From Candidatus Baltobacteraceae bacterium (lineage in GTDB: Bacteria > Vulcanimicrobiota > Vulcanimicrobiia > Vulcanimicrobiales > Vulcanimicrobiaceae): a stretch of 64,000 nucleotides of DNA. Below, one piece after another: positions 28,128-60,197 of the stretch. The stretch is taken from the NCBI GenBank assembly GCA_036489885.1, contig DASXEW010000003.1, positions 744,001-808,000 of the forward strand, given 5' to 3'. The notes under the pieces were generated by a model. That model saw only the letters and a program-made list of their open reading frames with translations, searched no databases and was not told the DNA's origin. Position 1 is the first letter of the stretch, and every line of letters starts with the position of its first letter. The translations under genes were made by a program, and so were the position numbers.

Positions 28128-29041
28128 TGGAATTGGGCGCTGTAAATCACCACGAATCGCAGGATGAGAACGCCAACTATGACGATGATGGCGCTGGTTC
28201 CCGTCCCCGCGAGGACGCGCGTCGCTGCGACCGCACCGCCGCTGGCGGTATAACGCACGCGACCGCCGCCGGCCAGCCTTCGTAGCGATGGTATGAAGCT
28301 TGCGAAAATGAGGATCCAGCCGATCAGCCACGGCGTTGCCGTCTCGCGCCAGAGCTCGCCCGCACCGGAGAGCGTGACGAAGAAGGCGATGATCATGATC
28401 AGCTCGAGCAGCACGAACCATGCGTCGGCTGCTTCCAAGCGGGCTTCGGTTGGGATCGCGTCATCGGAGCGAAAGCGCGACATGAAAGCCAGAAACGCTG
28501 CCGACGCGCTGAGCGCCGACGCGACGAAGAGTCCGCCGATCGCGTAGCTGTCACTCCAGACCGGCTGGTTCGAGACGCTGAGCACGACGCCGGTGTACGA
28601 CGCGAGAAACAGGGCGACGAGCGAGCCGACGATGTTCCAGACGATCATCGTGCCGCTGACGTTGCGGTCGTTGCCACGTTTGGTCATGACTTCCAAAAAC
28701 GAGACGAACGCGAACAAGCTGAAGATCAACAGCGCCCAAGTACCAAGCGAGATCGGCGACCAGGGCTTGAAATTCAAACCGAGCGATCCCGGCGTCGTAT
28801 TGACCATCATGTGCCAGAACCGCAACGGCTTCCCGAGATCGATCGTCAAGAGGATTCCGCAGACAACCACGATCGGGAAGGACCACATGAAGGCAATGCG
28901 CGCGGTCGCCTCGTCGCGCTGTGAACCCCAAAGACGCAGCATCGTCCCGAGCGTGTACGATCCGCCCGCGATACCCGCGAGGAAGAAGTAGAGCGTGATC
29001 CAGACTTCCCAATGTGGAGGCTGAACGAAATGCTCGGCCAT
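28124..29041 (-). CDS. NrfD/PsrC-type membrane subunit of formate dehydrogenase
   Basis: 305 residues with eight or nine membrane helices. The N-terminal WITLYFFLAGIAGGSYTLGTMLRLWG and LLTIDLGKPLRFWHM are typical of NrfD/PsrC subunits, which bind quinone and carry no heme. It takes the place of the cytochrome b subunit (FdnI) of the E. coli enzyme, so electrons would go from the iron-sulfur subunit directly to menaquinone. It overlaps the ferredoxin gene by one base (TAATG). Confidence 0.9.
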   Translation of the reverse strand: MAEHFVQPPHWEVWITLYFFLAGIAGGSYTLGTMLRLWGSQRDEATARIAFMWSFPIVVVCGILLTIDLGKPLRFWHMMVNTTPGSLGLNFKPWSPISLGTWALLIFSLFAFVSFLEVMTKRGNDRNVSGTMIVWNIVGSLVALFLASYTGVVLSVSNQPVWSDSYAIGGLFVASALSASAAFLAFMSRFRSDDAIPTEARLEAADAWFVLLELIMIIAFFVTLSGAGELWRETATPWLIGWILIFASFIPSLRRLAGGGRVRYTASGGAVAATRVLAGTGTSAIIVIVGVLILRFVVIYSAQFQ

Positions 29042-54023: not shown

Positions 54024-55011
54024 GCCGTCGCGCGTAATCCTTTGCGAAATACGTAATGATGATGTCGGCGCCGGCACGGGCGAACGAAAGCAGCAGCTCG
54101 TCGACGATTCGCTCTTCATCGATCCAGCCGTTTTGCGCGGCGGCTTTCACCATCGCGTATTCGCCGCTGACATTGTACACCGCGACCGGAAGGTCGACGT
54201 GATCGCGTACGCTGCGCACGACATCGAGATACGCCAACGCCGGCTTGACCATGACGACGTCGGCGCCTTCGTCGATGTCGAGGAATACTTCGCGCAACGC
54301 TTCACGTGCATTGGCCGGATCCATCTGATAGCTACGCCGGTCGCCGAACGCGGGCGTCGAATCGGCGGCTTCGCGGAACGGTCCATAGAACGCGGATGCA
54401 TATTTCGCCGAATACGCCATGATCGAGACGTTCGTGTATCCGTCGTCGTCGAGCGCGCGCCGGATTGCGCCGACGCGCCCGTCCATCATGTCGGAGGGTG
54501 CAATGACGTCGACGCCGGCTTGTGCGTACGTAAGCGCCGTGCGAACCAGTATCTCGACCGTTGCATCGTTCTCGACTTCACCACGTGCATCGAGCACGCC
54601 GCAATGTCCGTGATCGGTGTACTCGCAATTGCAAAGATCGGCGATGACGAGCATTTGCGGAAGCGCGGCTTTGATGGCGCGCGCGGCATTCTGCACGACA
54701 CCGTGCGGATCGTAGTTCGACGTTGCGGTCGCGTCTTTGAAATCCGGAATCCCGAAGAGCAACACCGCGCGAATGCCGGCGCTCGCGAGCTCCTTCGCTT
54801 CGGTGACGGCGACGTCGGCGGAGATGCGCGCAACGCCCGGCATGCTCGAGATGGGTTCGCGCACGCCGTTCCCCGCGACGATGAACATTGGCTGGACCAG
54901 GCCGGCCAGATTGACCCGCGTTTCGCGGACCATATCGCGGATCGCTGGGTTCGCCCGCAGGCGCCGGGGGCGGCTCACGAGCGTGAGGATCCGCTTATCT
55001 TGGAGCTGCAT
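54016..55011 (-). CDS. hemB: Porphobilinogen synthase
   Basis: 331 residues from ATG 55011 (MQLQDKRIL); ten upstream codons are not needed. It condenses two 5-aminolevulinates to porphobilinogen. The Schiff-base lysines lie in MAYSAKYAS and [10 protein letters not shown]. The zinc-binding cysteines are in [14 protein letters not shown], placing it in the zinc-dependent rather than the magnesium-only group. It overlaps the upstream fusion gene by 17 nt and mobA by 8 nt. Confidence 0.96.
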
Positions 55012-56368
55012 CCGTCGCTCTTTCGAGGGGTAGGCTCGCAAATTCCGCCGCTAAGGCCGTACCCAGTTGCTCGGCCTCGTCCGTGCCGGTCGCCGGCCCT
55101 CCGCGTTCGGCGCGGAGCACTCGCCCGTCATCCAGACCTACCGCCGCCCGGACGATCATCATCCGCGAAGCGGCGTCGAGGACGGCATTGGCCCCGATCG
55201 GTGCGGCGCAGCCGCCGCGCATGGTCCGCATAAAGGCGCGCTCGGCGATCACTTCCAGCTCAGCGTTCCCATCGTTGAGCGCGCTTCGCAAAACTGCCCC
55301 GAGCGGATCGTCGCGCCGTGCTTCGACTGCGAGCGCACCTTGCGCCGCGGCTGGTACCAGCGTTTCGCTTGGAAACGGGATGCTGTAGCGCGCACTCTCT
55401 CCGAGCCGATCGATTCCGGCGGCCGCCAGAACGATTGCATCGAACTCGCGCTCGGCGAGCTTACGCAAGCGTGTATCCACATTGCCTCGAATCGTGACGT
55501 ATTCGAGATCACCGCGTATGGCCGCAAGCTGAGCGCGCCGCCGCGGGCTGGATGTACCGACACGCGCGCCGCTCGGTAGCGCATCGAAATTTTCGAAACG
55601 GTCGCTGCAGAAGACGTCGCGGGGATCGGCGCGTTCGACGATCGCGACAATCTCCATATCCTCAGGCAGCGTGCTGGGAAGATCTTTACACGAATGGACG
55701 GCATAATCAGCGCGGCGATCGCGCAGTGCAAGCTCGAGCTCGCGCACGAAGACGTTGTCTGTGCCGATGGCCGTAATGGCACGGTCTTGCACTTGATCGC
55801 CCTTCGTCGTGATGTTGACGACGGTCGATGCAATGCCGCTGCGCGCAAGCTTTGCCATGACGAGCCGGGTTTGCGTCATCGCAAGCCGGCTCGCGCGCGA
55901 CGCGCATACGAGCGTTTCCGAAAGGCTGCGCTCGACGAGTGCGCCGATGCGTTCGCGCACGAGCTTTGCGACGGCGGGAGACGTCCCGCTCGTGTCGACC
56001 GCGATCGTCAGCGAATCGCGGCGATGCACCGAAGGTGTCGAGAAATCGCCGCGCTCGGCCCGGCTCGCATCGTTGACCAGGATCCCGTGCGCACGTGCCG
56101 CTTCGACGACTGAGGCGTTGACCGTGTCGTCATCCGTCGCCGCGAACACGAGCGAAGCGCCCGCGACGTCCGAGGCCTCAAAAGGTCGCTGCTGCACTTC
56201 TATGCGACGTTCGTCGGACAGCTGCGCGAGCGCCGGTGTCAAACCCGGTGAGACCACACGCACCGTTGCGCCGGCATCCAAAAGGACGGCAATCTTACGC
56301 TCGGCGACGCTGCCGCCGCCGATGACGACTGCGAGACGCCCGCGCATGTTTAGCGCGATAGGATACAC
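54995..56368 (-). CDS. hemC: Fused precorrin-2 dehydrogenase and porphobilinogen deaminase
   Basis: 457 residues from GTG 56368. Residues 1 to about 148 match the CysG/Met8p N-terminal domain: [24 protein letters not shown] binds NAD, and [15 protein letters not shown] includes the catalytic-aspartate region. It oxidises precorrin-2 to sirohydrochlorin and may insert iron. Residues 151-457 are HemC: HSCKDLP (224-232 region), [11 protein letters not shown] and the dipyrromethane-cofactor cysteine Cys387 in [10 protein letters not shown]. HemC builds hydroxymethylbilane. This fusion joins steps before and after uroporphyrinogen III. Confidence 0.93.
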
Positions 56369-56422: not shown

Positions 56423-58054
56423 ATGTCAGGCGCCATGCGCACGGCGCTCTTAGGAGCGCTTGTCGCCGCGATCGCCACGCTTCCGGGGCTCGGAACGGGG
56501 ACACTTTGGGACAATAGTGAGACCACCTACGGTGAGGTCGCTCGCGAGATTTTGCTGACCCACGATTGGGTCGTTATGCATTTGAACTTGACGCCTTGGT
56601 TCGTGCAGCCGCCGCTTTACTTCTGGACCGCAGCGGCGTTCGCGAAAATCTTCGGGGTGGGCACCTTCGCCTTGCGGCTCCCCTCGGCGCTCGCAACGGT
56701 CGCGATGGGTGCGACGATCGGTTACGCGACCGCGACCCTGGCGGGCTCGCGCGTCGGCCTGTATGGAGCAGTCGTTCTCTCGACGAGCTTGATGCAAGCG
56801 GTGATCGGACGCATGGCGATCATGGACGCGCTGCTCGATCTCGCCATCGCCGTCGGGATTCTCGCACTCTTTCGCGCCTTTACCGGAGGCAGACCGGTTC
56901 TTTCGGTAATCGGCGCCGGGCTTGCAATCGCGCTCGGAATTCTCGCCAAGGGTCCCGTTGCGTTCGTCGTCGTCGCGATCGTCATCGTGCCGTGGTTCGT
57001 GTGGGAGCGATATTCGGGCGCGCGTCTGTCGTATCCGCCGGTGTGGTCGTGGTTTGCGGCGCTCGCGCTCTTGCTGGCGATCGACACGCCGTGGTTCGCG
57101 CTGTTTGTTTCGCACGCCGGCCCTTCCGCCTTCGACGAGTTGATCGGACACTACACGTTCGGCCGTTACGTCGGTACCATCGAGAATCAGAGTGGCCCGA
57201 TTTGGTATTACGTGCCGGTTGTGATTCTCGGATTCTTTCCGTGGATCGCGTACTTGCCCGGAGCAATCGCGAGTGCATGGCGGCGTGCAAGCACGCCGAA
57301 CGGTCTCGGCATTCACGTCGCGCGGCTCGCACTGGTGTGGAGCGTCGTGCCATTCGTCTTTTTTAGCCTGGCGGGAACGAAGCTTCCGAACTATTTAGCG
57401 GTTGAGCTGCCGGCGCTTGCGATCCTCGTTGCACTCTGGTTCGATCAGCTTGCCCAAGGCGAACATCGCCGCAGCGCCGTCATTGCGACGGCCGTCATTC
57501 CCCTTACGATCGGCGCCGTCGCAATCGCGATCGCCGTCTTTGCGCGCAACGCACACATCCTGGCCGGAACGGAAGCGGTGCTCGGTGACCTCGCGATCAT
57601 GGGCGCGATCATCTTCGTCGGCTCGATCGCAACGCTCGTGTTCTTATGGATGAACCGGACTGCGACGGCACCCTACGTGTTCGCCGCAACTGCGATTGTA
57701 ATGGTGACGTATACGGTCCTCGTTGGCGAGCCGCACGCCGAGCGCTACAAGCCGGTTCCGCAGCTCGCAGCGGTTATTCGCGCGCAGGCGCACGAGGGAG
57801 ACGTCGTTGCGATTCAGGGCGTTGCCGGCGGCTACGGTTTGATTTTCTACACGCAACCGCACGTCGAGGTCATCGGTGCGGACGCCGATGCGCACGGCGT
57901 GCTCTGTCCGGCTCGCCGTGCGTTCTTCATCACCTCGAAGCAGCGCGCTCGCGGCGCCGACATCGACGGACATGAAAAGCACGTCGTCGCCACCTCAGGC
58001 AACGACGTGCTCTTGCTGTTTACTTCAGTTCGGCCTGAACCTGAGCCGTGCTAA
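56423..58054 (+). CDS. GT39/ArnT-like membrane glycosyltransferase
   Basis: 543 residues with about twelve membrane helices. The acidic first loop DNSETTYGEVAREIL corresponds to the catalytic D/E motif of ArnT/PMT family enzymes (usually DE-R-Y-E). TPWFVQPPLYFW and GTKLPNYLAVELPALA are also typical. It would transfer a sugar from a polyprenyl-phosphate donor to lipid A, a protein or a glycan. It is divergent from the tetrapyrrole operon, and its last 35 nt overlap the cytochrome b/c gene tail to tail. Confidence 0.87.
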   Translation: MSGAMRTALLGALVAAIATLPGLGTGTLWDNSETTYGEVAREILLTHDWVVMHLNLTPWFVQPPLYFWTAAAFAKIFGVGTFALRLPSALATVAMGATIGYATATLAGSRVGLYGAVVLSTSLMQAVIGRMAIMDALLDLAIAVGILALFRAFTGGRPVLSVIGAGLAIALGILAKGPVAFVVVAIVIVPWFVWERYSGARLSYPPVWSWFAALALLLAIDTPWFALFVSHAGPSAFDELIGHYTFGRYVGTIENQSGPIWYYVPVVILGFFPWIAYLPGAIASAWRRASTPNGLGIHVARLALVWSVVPFVFFSLAGTKLPNYLAVELPALAILVALWFDQLAQGEHRRSAVIATAVIPLTIGAVAIAIAVFARNAHILAGTEAVLGDLAIMGAIIFVGSIATLVFLWMNRTATAPYVFAATAIVMVTYTVLVGEPHAERYKPVPQLAAVIRAQAHEGDVVAIQGVAGGYGLIFYTQPHVEVIGADADAHGVLCPARRAFFITSKQRARGADIDGHEKHVVATSGNDVLLLFTSVRPEPEPC

Positions 58055-59519
58055 CGGCCGAGGCTTTGTTGCCCCACGTGCTGCGAATGTACGTGAGAAC
58101 GCCCGCAATCTCGTCCGGTTTGAGCTGAGCTTTCCACGGCGGCATCGTTCCGTTGTAGGTCGTTCCGCCAACGTTCAGCGGACCGGTCTTACCGTTGAGA
58201 ACGATGTGAATGATGTCTTTGGGATCAGCCGCGGTGACTGCGCTGTTGCCGGCGAGCGGCGGGAACGCGCCGGGCGTACCCTGACCGGTTGCGCCGTGGC
58301 AAGCCGTGCAGTTATTGTTGTAAACCGTCGCGCCGGCTGACGAGGCAGCGCTTACGCCGGGCTGGCCTGCAGCCGAACCGGTCGGCGCAAGCGGCGCAGC
58401 TGCAGCGGCTGCGACTTTCGCAGCGTCGGCACCGCCGGGGACTGTCGGCGCAGTTTGCCCGCGCGCATCGGCCTTAGCGTTGACGGTTGACTGACCGCCA
58501 ATCGAAAGTCCGGCAGCAATAAGGATGAAGACGGCGGTGACGACGAGCGCCGCAGGCCGCCTGTGAACCTCACGGCTCGGATTGCGATCGAGCCACGGCA
58601 AGAGAATGAGGAACAGTACGCCGAGAGTGGGGATGACGATCGTGCCGACGAGCTGCCCGAATTGCCCCGGGAAGATCTCCAGCAAGAAATAGAGCCCCAT
58701 GAAATACCAAGCCGGCGAGGGGACGAATTGATCGTTATTCGGATCGGCTTTGGCATCGAGCGGCGCCGGTGAAAGCACCGCAAGAATAACGATGACCAGC
58801 AACACGACGAGCGAGGCGACCGTGTCCATGAACATCTGATTGGGCCAGAAGCGCCCCGGCTTGAGCTTCGAGCGGTCGTCTTTCGGCGGCCCAGCGGAGC
58901 CGTTGTGCCGGAAGATGATGAGATGCACGGCAACCAGCAAGACGAGGATCAGCGGCGTCAACCACACGTGGATGCCGAAGAACTTGTTGAGCGTCAGCGT
59001 GTTCATGACCGGGCCGCCTTGCAGCCAGTTCTGCAAGAACGGACCCGCGATCGGCGCCGCACCGGTGATGTTCAGCGAGACTTGCGATGCGAAGTACGCG
59101 TTGAGATCCCAGGGCAGCAGATAGCCGGTGAGTCCGAGCACGAGCGTCAGAATGAAGAGCACGATGCCGACGACCCATTGCAGCTCGCGCGGGCGCTTAT
59201 ATGCACCCCAGACCGCGACTTGCACGAGGTGCATCGCGACCAGTGCGATCATCGCCGTCGCACCCCAATAGTGCAGGCTGATGATAAACTGACCGAACGG
59301 AACTTTTTGATAGATGAAGAGCGTCGACTCCCACGCGCTCGCCGCGGACGGCGCGTAGTACATCGTGAGGAAAATGCCCGTGACGATCTGTAAGATCATT
59401 GCGAACAACGTCGCGCTTCCGAAAACGTACCAATAAGACGGTCCGCCGGGAACATCCTCGGTTAGGAAACTCTTCGTCATGCTGACGAAGCCGGTGCGTG
59501 ATTCGAGCCAATTCATCAT
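58020..59519 (-). CDS. Cytochrome b fused to cytochrome c (bc complex)
   Basis: 499 residues. The cytochrome b part (1 to about 345) has heme ligands H83/H97 and H184/H199. The 14-residue gap in the second pair is the cytochrome b6-type spacing. The Qo motif PEWY reads P269-A-W-Y272. After an Ala/Pro-rich linker, residues 395-499 form a cytochrome c domain (CTACH at 404-408, axial Met in GTMPPW). The fusion would carry electrons from quinol via the Rieske protein to a terminal acceptor. It lies 9 nt downstream of the Rieske gene. Confidence 0.93.
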   Translation of the reverse strand: MMNWLESRTGFVSMTKSFLTEDVPGGPSYWYVFGSATLFAMILQIVTGIFLTMYYAPSAASAWESTLFIYQKVPFGQFIISLHYWGATAMIALVAMHLVQVAVWGAYKRPRELQWVVGIVLFILTLVLGLTGYLLPWDLNAYFASQVSLNITGAAPIAGPFLQNWLQGGPVMNTLTLNKFFGIHVWLTPLILVLLVAVHLIIFRHNGSAGPPKDDRSKLKPGRFWPNQMFMDTVASLVVLLVIVILAVLSPAPLDAKADPNNDQFVPSPAWYFMGLYFLLEIFPGQFGQLVGTIVIPTLGVLFLILLPWLDRNPSREVHRRPAALVVTAVFILIAAGLSIGGQSTVNAKADARGQTAPTVPGGADAAKVAAAAAAPLAPTGSAAGQPGVSAASSAGATVYNNNCTACHGATGQGTPGAFPPLAGNSAVTAADPKDIIHIVLNGKTGPLNVGGTTYNGTMPPWKAQLKPDEIAGVLTYIRSTWGNKASAVSTAQVQAELK

Positions 59520-59528
59520 GATGCGCGC

Positions 59529-60197
59529 TTAACTGTAACTAACGATGACGCGGTCAGGCGTCGAGCTTTTATAACGGATCCACGTGACCTCGGCTTTGCC
59601 GGTTTGTTCGCGCAGCGGCAGCGGATCGAGTCCGCGCGGCGCGGGACCCGCAGTACGCTCGCCGTTACGATCGTACGTCGAGTTGTGGCACGGGCAGAAG
59701 AAAATGCTCTTGCTGTCATCCCATGCGAAACGACAACCCAGGTGCGGGCAGATCGACGAGAAGATCACGTAGCCCGCCGTGTAAATCTGATCCGTGTACG
59801 GCACCTGTTCGGCTTTCGACGCATCGGGCGGGAAAAGATCGGTGCGCTCCGTTTTCATCTTTTCGAACTGCGCCGGGCTCATCTTCACGCCCCAAACGTA
59901 GTCCGAAGTCCCTTCCGGTAGGAAGTAACCGTCGGTCGTTTTGCGCGTGAACGAGATCTTCAGCGGTGCTGCGCTCGTCGTGAGCTTCGTCCAGTCGTTT
60001 TGATCGACTGGTGACCATGCCTCGGCGGAAAGCTCATTGATCTTTTTACCGGGCACGCTGTATGCAAGCAGCGGCACGCCGATAACGAGACCGATCACGG
60101 TTCCGAGTACGATCGTGGCATTCGCCATGAATGCCCGACGGCTTTGCTCTTCCGGCGTTCCCGGATCGAGGTACGCCTCCGCGTGGACTTGTGACAC
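59529..60197 (-). CDS. Rieske iron-sulfur subunit of the bc complex
   Basis: 222 residues from GTG 60197 with AGGAG upstream. A twin-arginine (SRRAF, 19-23) and a membrane helix (about 27-47) precede the cluster domain. Ligands are C150/H152 and C168/H171, with C155 and C170 placed for the stabilising disulfide (CPHLGC and CPCH). It accepts the first electron from quinol and hands it to the cytochrome c domain of the neighbouring fusion. Confidence 0.95.
   Translation of the reverse strand: MSQVHAEAYLDPGTPEEQSRRAFMANATIVLGTVIGLVIGVPLLAYSVPGKKINELSAEAWSPVDQNDWTKLTTSAAPLKISFTRKTTDGYFLPEGTSDYVWGVKMSPAQFEKMKTERTDLFPPDASKAEQVPYTDQIYTAGYVIFSSICPHLGCRFAWDDSKSIFFCPCHNSTYDRNGERTAGPAPRGLDPLPLREQTGKAEVTWIRYKSSTPDRVIVSYS

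Follow-up and report, generated by a model that had tools for sequence, protein, structure and literature searches.

Class-wide fixation of an alanine at the Qo motif of a cytochrome b6-subunit IV-cytochrome c fusion in Eremiobacteria

The DNA analysed here, a stretch of 64,000 nucleotides referred to as the window (contig DASXEW010000003.1, positions 744,001 to 808,000), comes from a Candidatus Baltobacteraceae genome that belongs to class Eremiobacteria, and encodes on its minus strand a Rieske protein and, starting 9 bases downstream of it, a fusion of cytochrome b with a mono-haem cytochrome c. The closest named records to the fusion are Candidatus Eremiobacterota metagenome-assembled genomes (MAGs). 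In the quinol-oxidation (Qo) site of this protein the glutamate of the PEWY motif is replaced by Ala270, giving PAWY, as an earlier note on this DNA had claimed; the replacement is read at the codon GCT and is shared by all 102 orthologues described below. The following features make up the locus:

59529..60197, minus strand: Rieske [2Fe-2S] protein (QcrA-like), 222 residues, GTG start, ligand boxes CPHLGC...CPCHNS
58020..59519, minus strand: cytochrome b6 + subunit IV + mono-haem cytochrome c fusion (QcrBC-like), 499 residues, from the open reading frame (ORF) and Pfam
58923..59273, minus strand: span of the four haem b ligands His83, His97, His184 and His199, from the alignment
59100..59123, minus strand: Qo cd1 region YLLPWDLN, residues 133-140, with Tyr133, Asp138 and Asn140, from the alignment
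58704..58715, minus strand: Qo motif PAWY, residues 269-272, with the Ala270 codon GCT at 58710-58712
58074..58340, minus strand: C-terminal cytochrome c domain, residues 394-482, with CxxCH at 404-408 and a possible axial Met459, from Pfam

Pfam divides the fusion into Cytochrome_B (25-206), Cytochrom_B_C (268-355) and Cytochrom_C (394-482). The haem b ligands form the pairs H83/H97, with 13 residues between them, and H184/H199, with 14. By alignment with the Rhodobacter capsulatus protein, which agrees with the structural match given further on, Tyr133 corresponds to Tyr147, Asp138 to position 152, residue 140 to Met154, Ala270 to Glu295 and Tyr272 to Tyr297.

The replacement is a property of the whole class. 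Matches to the fusion at an E value of 1e-20 or better were found in 123 of the 149 genomes of the phylum, and strong ones in 105 of the 117 genomes counted as class Eremiobacteria and in none of the searched genomes of the phylum outside the class. The orthologue set comprises 102 distinct proteins from 101 genomes, leaving out four strong but fragmentary matches (G079, G081, G047 and G122). All 102 carry PAWY, including L030, in which the first pattern match falls on another site, and PAWYF and the four haem b histidines are invariant throughout. This is seen against a pairwise identity of the b part of 51-100% (median 63%), where only 78 of 339 columns, and 6 of the 34 columns with an alanine majority, do not vary. 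Columns near the motif drift, position 268 being Y, S, A or T and positions 274 and 275 being variable, and all four alanine codons are used for Ala270 (GCG 37, GCC 36, GCA 17, GCT 12). Since the third codon base has been free to change while the alanine stayed, selection for alanine, and not loss of role, is indicated. A sequencing error or an oddity of one genome is excluded by the 102 orthologues and, on this comparison of sequences, the fixed PAWY is neither error nor drift. The possibility raised beforehand, that PAWY might be common and functionally neutral in this lineage, thus holds as regards its universality, but the motif is fixed rather than neutral.

The partner gene is equally constant. 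A Rieske gene is adjacent at 95 of the 102 loci, and the remaining seven loci start at contig ends. Its seeming absence in family f3 was traced to a pattern that required CPHLGC; the f3 Rieske proteins (L162, L163, L166-L171) carry CPHLNC or CPHLQC as first ligand box. On the Rieske side the complex looks ordinary: all 87 proteins read by a pattern that also allowed Gly or Ala have the box II serine, followed two residues later by Tyr (45 proteins) or Phe (42). According to the accessible part of PMC12954380, this serine and tyrosine both raise the Rieske potential, and a high-potential cluster is possible in the Eremiobacterial complex. One contig labelled as a Rhodospirillales MAG (L042) bears the Eremiobacterial fusion gene, and its record is probably misnamed or mis-binned. 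The searched viral contigs gave no match, and a scan of genome contigs gave 19 loci with patterns that favour close relatives, so that PAWY is possible in other phyla. Our literature search found no paper joining "PAWY" with "cytochrome b", and nothing about a PAWY motif in the literature on Eremiobacterota with cytochrome bc1 or Rieske.

As for the class of the protein, its membership of the Rieske/cytochrome b family is supported by the invariant haem b histidines, by the adjacent Rieske protein with both Cys-His boxes, and by the fold. A predicted AlphaFold model (mean pLDDT 73, 19 sequences) matches, with residues 21-349, residues 35-386 of the R. capsulatus cytochrome b 1zrt_C (Z 29.1, rmsd 3.2, 325 aligned), and the 50 listed structures, cytochrome b chains of bc1 or bcc complexes, give Z values of 27.8-31.6. 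Only the Glu or Asp of the Qo motif is lacking, and the existence of enzymes with PVWY shows that this acid is not strictly required for membership. Cytochrome bc1 of proteobacteria and mitochondria combines an eight-helix cytochrome b with a separate cytochrome c1. The model instead has seven long membrane helices, which hydropathy also gives once overlapping peaks are merged, and the c domain is fused. Lysine and arginine residues number 14 in the cytoplasmic loops and 2 in the periplasmic ones. Seven helices would bring the C-terminus to the periplasm, the compartment required for a c-type haem, and the fusion is then no paradox; we infer that the c domain lies in the periplasm and replaces cytochrome c1 or f.

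The b6f complexes and the QcrABC complexes of Firmicutes, for their part, have b6 and subunit IV as separate proteins, whereas here they share one 499-residue chain. In Chlamydomonas b6, Cys35 binds haem cn covalently. The fusion has Val32 at this place and none of the 102 orthologues has a cysteine there (one row has a gap), whereas the six split b6 proteins of the same phylum all have it. The 14 residues of the second haem pair, taken in the earlier note as b6-like, are correctly counted and do agree with the b6f/QcrABC class, but they are not diagnostic: 43 of 46 aligned rows have 14, including the bc1 complexes of Pseudomonas (gamma-proteobacterial) and Aquifex, and only three alpha-proteobacterial rows have 13. 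The spacing was therefore dropped as a mark of the clade. The same note saw a full-length cytochrome b fused to a c domain; the fused c domain stands, the b part is a seven-helix b6-subunit IV and not a full bc1-type protein, and the supposed special combination of spacing and full-length b dissolves. Going by sequence and model, the PAWY fusion fits neither textbook class, bc1 or b6f.

This protein seems to be the main, and frequently the only, cytochrome b of its hosts. The genome from which the window comes also encodes a second complex, one of actinobacterial type (contig C1, L135 5724-8805), consisting of a di-haem cytochrome c, a Rieske protein and a cytochrome b with PDWY, which adjoins the COX1 gene of a haem-copper oxidase. 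A search of 147 genomes of the phylum with this second cytochrome b found the PDWY-type protein in just 43. A model of the cytochrome b N-terminal domain was run on 35 genomes, namely 34 picked for being at least 90% complete and without the PDWY complex, plus the host genome. In all 34 there is exactly one match, at the PAWY protein, and in the host there are two. Alternative complex III needs two NrfD proteins. Fifteen of the same 35 genomes have no NrfD and cannot hold that complex, and more than one NrfD gene was found in G084 and in the host. A sole cytochrome b together with the absence of NrfD leaves the PAWY complex as the only candidate quinol:cytochrome c reductase in many members, and very probably it is the working complex III of the 34 genomes without the PDWY complex.

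Its quinone is most likely menaquinone. MqnC, of the futalosine route to menaquinone, is over the cut-off in 114 of 147 genomes including the host (458.6 against a cut-off of 428.1 bits), MenD is over it in none of the 147, and COQ7 has no match in the host and three over the cut-off among the 147. The accessible part of PMC9758169 reports menaquinone in a cultured Eremiobacterota strain; for this organism, Vulcanimicrobium alpinus, the paper gives MK-7 as the major quinone in a table and MK-9 in the text. The presence of MqnC thus points to a host that makes menaquinone by the futalosine route, with menaquinol as the putative substrate of the complex itself. The second residue of the Qo motif correlates with the quinone species (PMC9162462, in the part available), and Kao and Hunte (2014) are cited, in the accessible sections of PMC12199298, for a pairing of Glu with ubiquinone and of Asp with menaquinone. 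With menaquinone as the probable quinone and alanine at the motif, Eremiobacteria would depart from the published Asp-menaquinone pairing.

Maximum-likelihood trees of 46 and 50 rows, with 22 Eremiobacterial rows drawn from the 102 and the motif columns included, address the phylogeny with motif mapping that had been proposed. In both trees the Eremiobacterial proteins form one clade (support 100/100), so that the distinct clade envisaged in the earlier note is recovered with its fixed PAWY, and its menaquinol-oxidising character agrees with the menaquinone deduced for the hosts. The clade sits in a group of b-c fusions (96/93 and 97/98) together with Bacteroidetes MAGs, Deinococcus plasmids and G133, a genome of the same phylum. 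The 50-row tree raised a long-branch warning that names no branch inside the Eremiobacterial clade. Since the clade is nested among other b-c fusions, the fusion would be older than PAWY, which, on this sampling of sequences, had a single origin; position 295 requires at least seven changes on the 50-row tree. Further fusion lineages were sought on plasmids and only Deinococcus was found, Aureibacter being rejected because its APWY protein is of another group.

Several known systems resemble the Eremiobacterial one in part. In QcrABC of Firmicutes, QcrB is b6 and QcrC is subunit IV plus cytochrome c. The order of Rieske, b6, subunit IV and C-terminal mono-haem c is the same as here, as is the likely use of menaquinol, whereas in Eremiobacteria b6, subunit IV and c form one chain that has PAWY and lacks the cysteine of haem cn. 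Closer are the Rieske and b-c fusion genes of Deinococcus plasmids (L144, L178, L179) and of G133 (L126), which share the fusion, a polar residue 154 and the absence of that cysteine, but have PDWY and Gln at the Tyr147 position. The fusions of Bacteroidetes MAGs (L050-L052) have the same b6-IV-c order, with 39% identity over the aligned chain and 41% over the b part, but differ in PEWN, Ala at the Tyr147 position, Arg at 154 and two CxxCH. These are b-c-c fusions of 642 residues in which two of the Tyr-Glu-Tyr group are changed; PMC12199298 saw no such case among its 9993 sequences.

The host's own second complex, an actinobacterial QcrCAB, is likewise a bcc complex of menaquinol type, but has PDWY, a separate di-haem QcrC and only 26% identity in the b part. 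Cytochrome bc1 of Pseudomonas aeruginosa (8smr) shares a non-acidic Qo residue (PVWY) and the 14-residue spacing, but has a longer ef loop, Met154 and a separate cytochrome c1. PVWY is also found in Legionella, Neisseria and Aeromonas, so that a missing Qo acid is not new in kind; what is new is a class-wide fixed alanine in menaquinone bacteria. Other non-acidic motifs (L125, L131, L142, L177) are PQWY in G032, which carries this protein in addition to its PAWY fusion, PPWY in G013, and APWY in G140 and Aureibacter.

How the Qo site could work without its acid can be approached from R. capsulatus. According to the accessible part of PMC10583091, the E295V mutant falls from 380 to 110 s-1 in flash rate and its cells still grow, whereas H276F/E295V is dead and is revived by M154T or N279S, which free Tyr147; in its model, residue 154 is stacked against 147 and 295. 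Simulations give Tyr147, Glu295, Tyr297 and water as a relay (PMC12199298, as far as accessible). Both tyrosines are kept in all 102 orthologues, as Tyr133 and Tyr272, and at the Met154 position, residue 140, 60 of them have Asn and the other 42 Asp. As in b6f, a short ef loop leaves R. capsulatus His276 and Asp278 without an aligned counterpart.

No clade-specific acid replacing the glutamate was found in the alignment of the 102 orthologues. Glu281 of "LLEIFPG" was rejected because most orthologues have N, R, A or D in its column, as was Asp255 as an essential substitute, since it is Asp in 84 and Leu in 18. Asp259 is present in 99 of 102 as part of a common ADP/ANP stretch. Asp138 is invariant, and outside the fusion group 10 of 20 rows share this Asp, several of these carrying PEWY. 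A nearby acid, which would have told against the earlier note's interest in the motif, is thus absent as a novelty of the clade, and present only as this older Asp138 with Asn/Asp140 in the same pocket by alignment.

With a probability of roughly 70%, and judging from sequences, we take the two-gene complex of Rieske protein and b6-IV-c fusion to be the ordinary complex III of class Eremiobacteria, which would oxidise menaquinol by the Q cycle and hand electrons to a periplasmic cytochrome c or an oxidase. The first Qo proton would leave by the Rieske histidine, as usual. As there is no clade-specific acid, we infer, with less certainty, a tyrosine-and-water route for the second one, which would run over Tyr133 (Tyr147) and water molecules alongside the polar residue 140 and, less surely still, end at a haem bL propionate or Asp259. 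The small alanine may have been kept to leave space for the tyrosine and water.

Several points weigh against this proposal. A polar 154 is also found in relatives with an acid, namely the PDWY proteins of Deinococcus (N/T) and G133 (N) and those of Bacteroidetes (R), so that it has not arisen as an answer to the loss of the glutamate. The PVWY proteins of gamma- and beta-proteobacteria, in turn, retain Met154, and a polar residue is therefore not needed everywhere the acid is missing. Asp278, the acceptor in the published R. capsulatus model, has no counterpart in the shortened ef loop, the naming of Asp259 as an acceptor is a guess, and the mean pLDDT of the structure model is only 73.

The same comparison allows a broader and distinctly tentative suggestion, namely that the whole fusion clade has a different Qo relay, with Tyr147 and the acid at 295 standing in for one another instead of acting together, the polar 154 having made either dispensable, and that Eremiobacteria fixed the tyrosine-only solution for menaquinol. 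Among the 28 b-c fusion rows, the residues at 147 and 295 are Y/A in 22 (Eremiobacteria), Q/D in 4 (Deinococcus and G133) and A/E in 2 (Bacteroidetes), so that Tyr147 and the acid are never both kept, whereas outside the fusions both are kept in 13 of the 21 rows readable at 295 (row L136, misaligned at the Qo motif, was left out of these counts). At position 154, the 28 fusion rows have N, D, T or R and the other 22 have M, L, F or A; Deinococcus AJ005 and D7000 have Thr there, the same residue as the R. capsulatus suppressor. These patterns come from three lineages.

Among the other explanations, a direct replacement of the missing acid as first proton acceptor by Asp138 of PWD, or by Asp140 in the 42 orthologues that have it, would agree with the invariance of the former, with Asn or Asp at residue 140 in all 102, with the location of both in the cd1 region by alignment, and with the stacking of 154 on 147 and 295 described in the accessible part of PMC10583091. 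We consider it rather doubtful, given that Asp138 is old and not a substitute, being shared with PEWY proteins outside the fusions, and that 60 of the 102 have Asn, not Asp, at residue 140. It appears unlikely as well that the alanine is an adaptation to low pH in the periplasm, where a carboxylate would often be protonated and could be swapped for a small residue: many Eremiobacterota records come from bogs, palsas and other soils, and Kao and Hunte are said to have described special Qo patterns in acidophiles in 2014, but the second complex of the same genome keeps PDWY, and pH 6.0 was used to grow the cultured strain (PMC9758169, in the part available). A decayed Qo site, or an auxiliary, non-bifurcating reductase, to which the host's second complete PDWY complex beside a haem-copper oxidase gene might point, is very improbable in view of the conserved alanine, the intact haem and Rieske ligands, the 34 genomes with no other cytochrome b and the restriction of the PDWY complex to 43 of 147.

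The surroundings of the locus are haem-related, going by gene names taken from Pfam families: hemA, hemL, hemB and a SirC/Met8-HemC ORF lie at 50.7-56.4 kb, and the stretch at 62.9-63.9 kb encodes a CcsA-type protein of cytochrome c assembly. The SirC/Met8-HemC ORF (54998-56368, minus strand) is a haem/sirohaem fusion of a SirC/Met8-like NAD-binding domain (4-113) and the porphobilinogen deaminase HemC (154-443). The 3' ends of the b6-IV-c fusion gene and of a convergent PMT_2-type glycosyltransferase ORF (56423-58054, plus strand) share 35 bases, 58020-58054. An NrfD-family membrane protein is also encoded in the window (28130-29014, minus strand), at 772130-773014 of contig C3. Elsewhere (L153, 5287-5688, minus strand), a small single-haem cytochrome c is 48% identical to the fused c domain and is a candidate mobile partner of the complex.

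For decades it has been debated, chiefly on the basis of point mutants with a partial loss of activity, whether the PEWY glutamate takes up the second proton released when quinol is oxidised. A class-wide complex III with a conserved alanine, often as the sole cytochrome b and together with menaquinone, for which Asp would be expected, would amount to a natural experiment on the need for this acid, and singles out residues 147 and 154 as candidates for a part in proton transfer at the Qo site.

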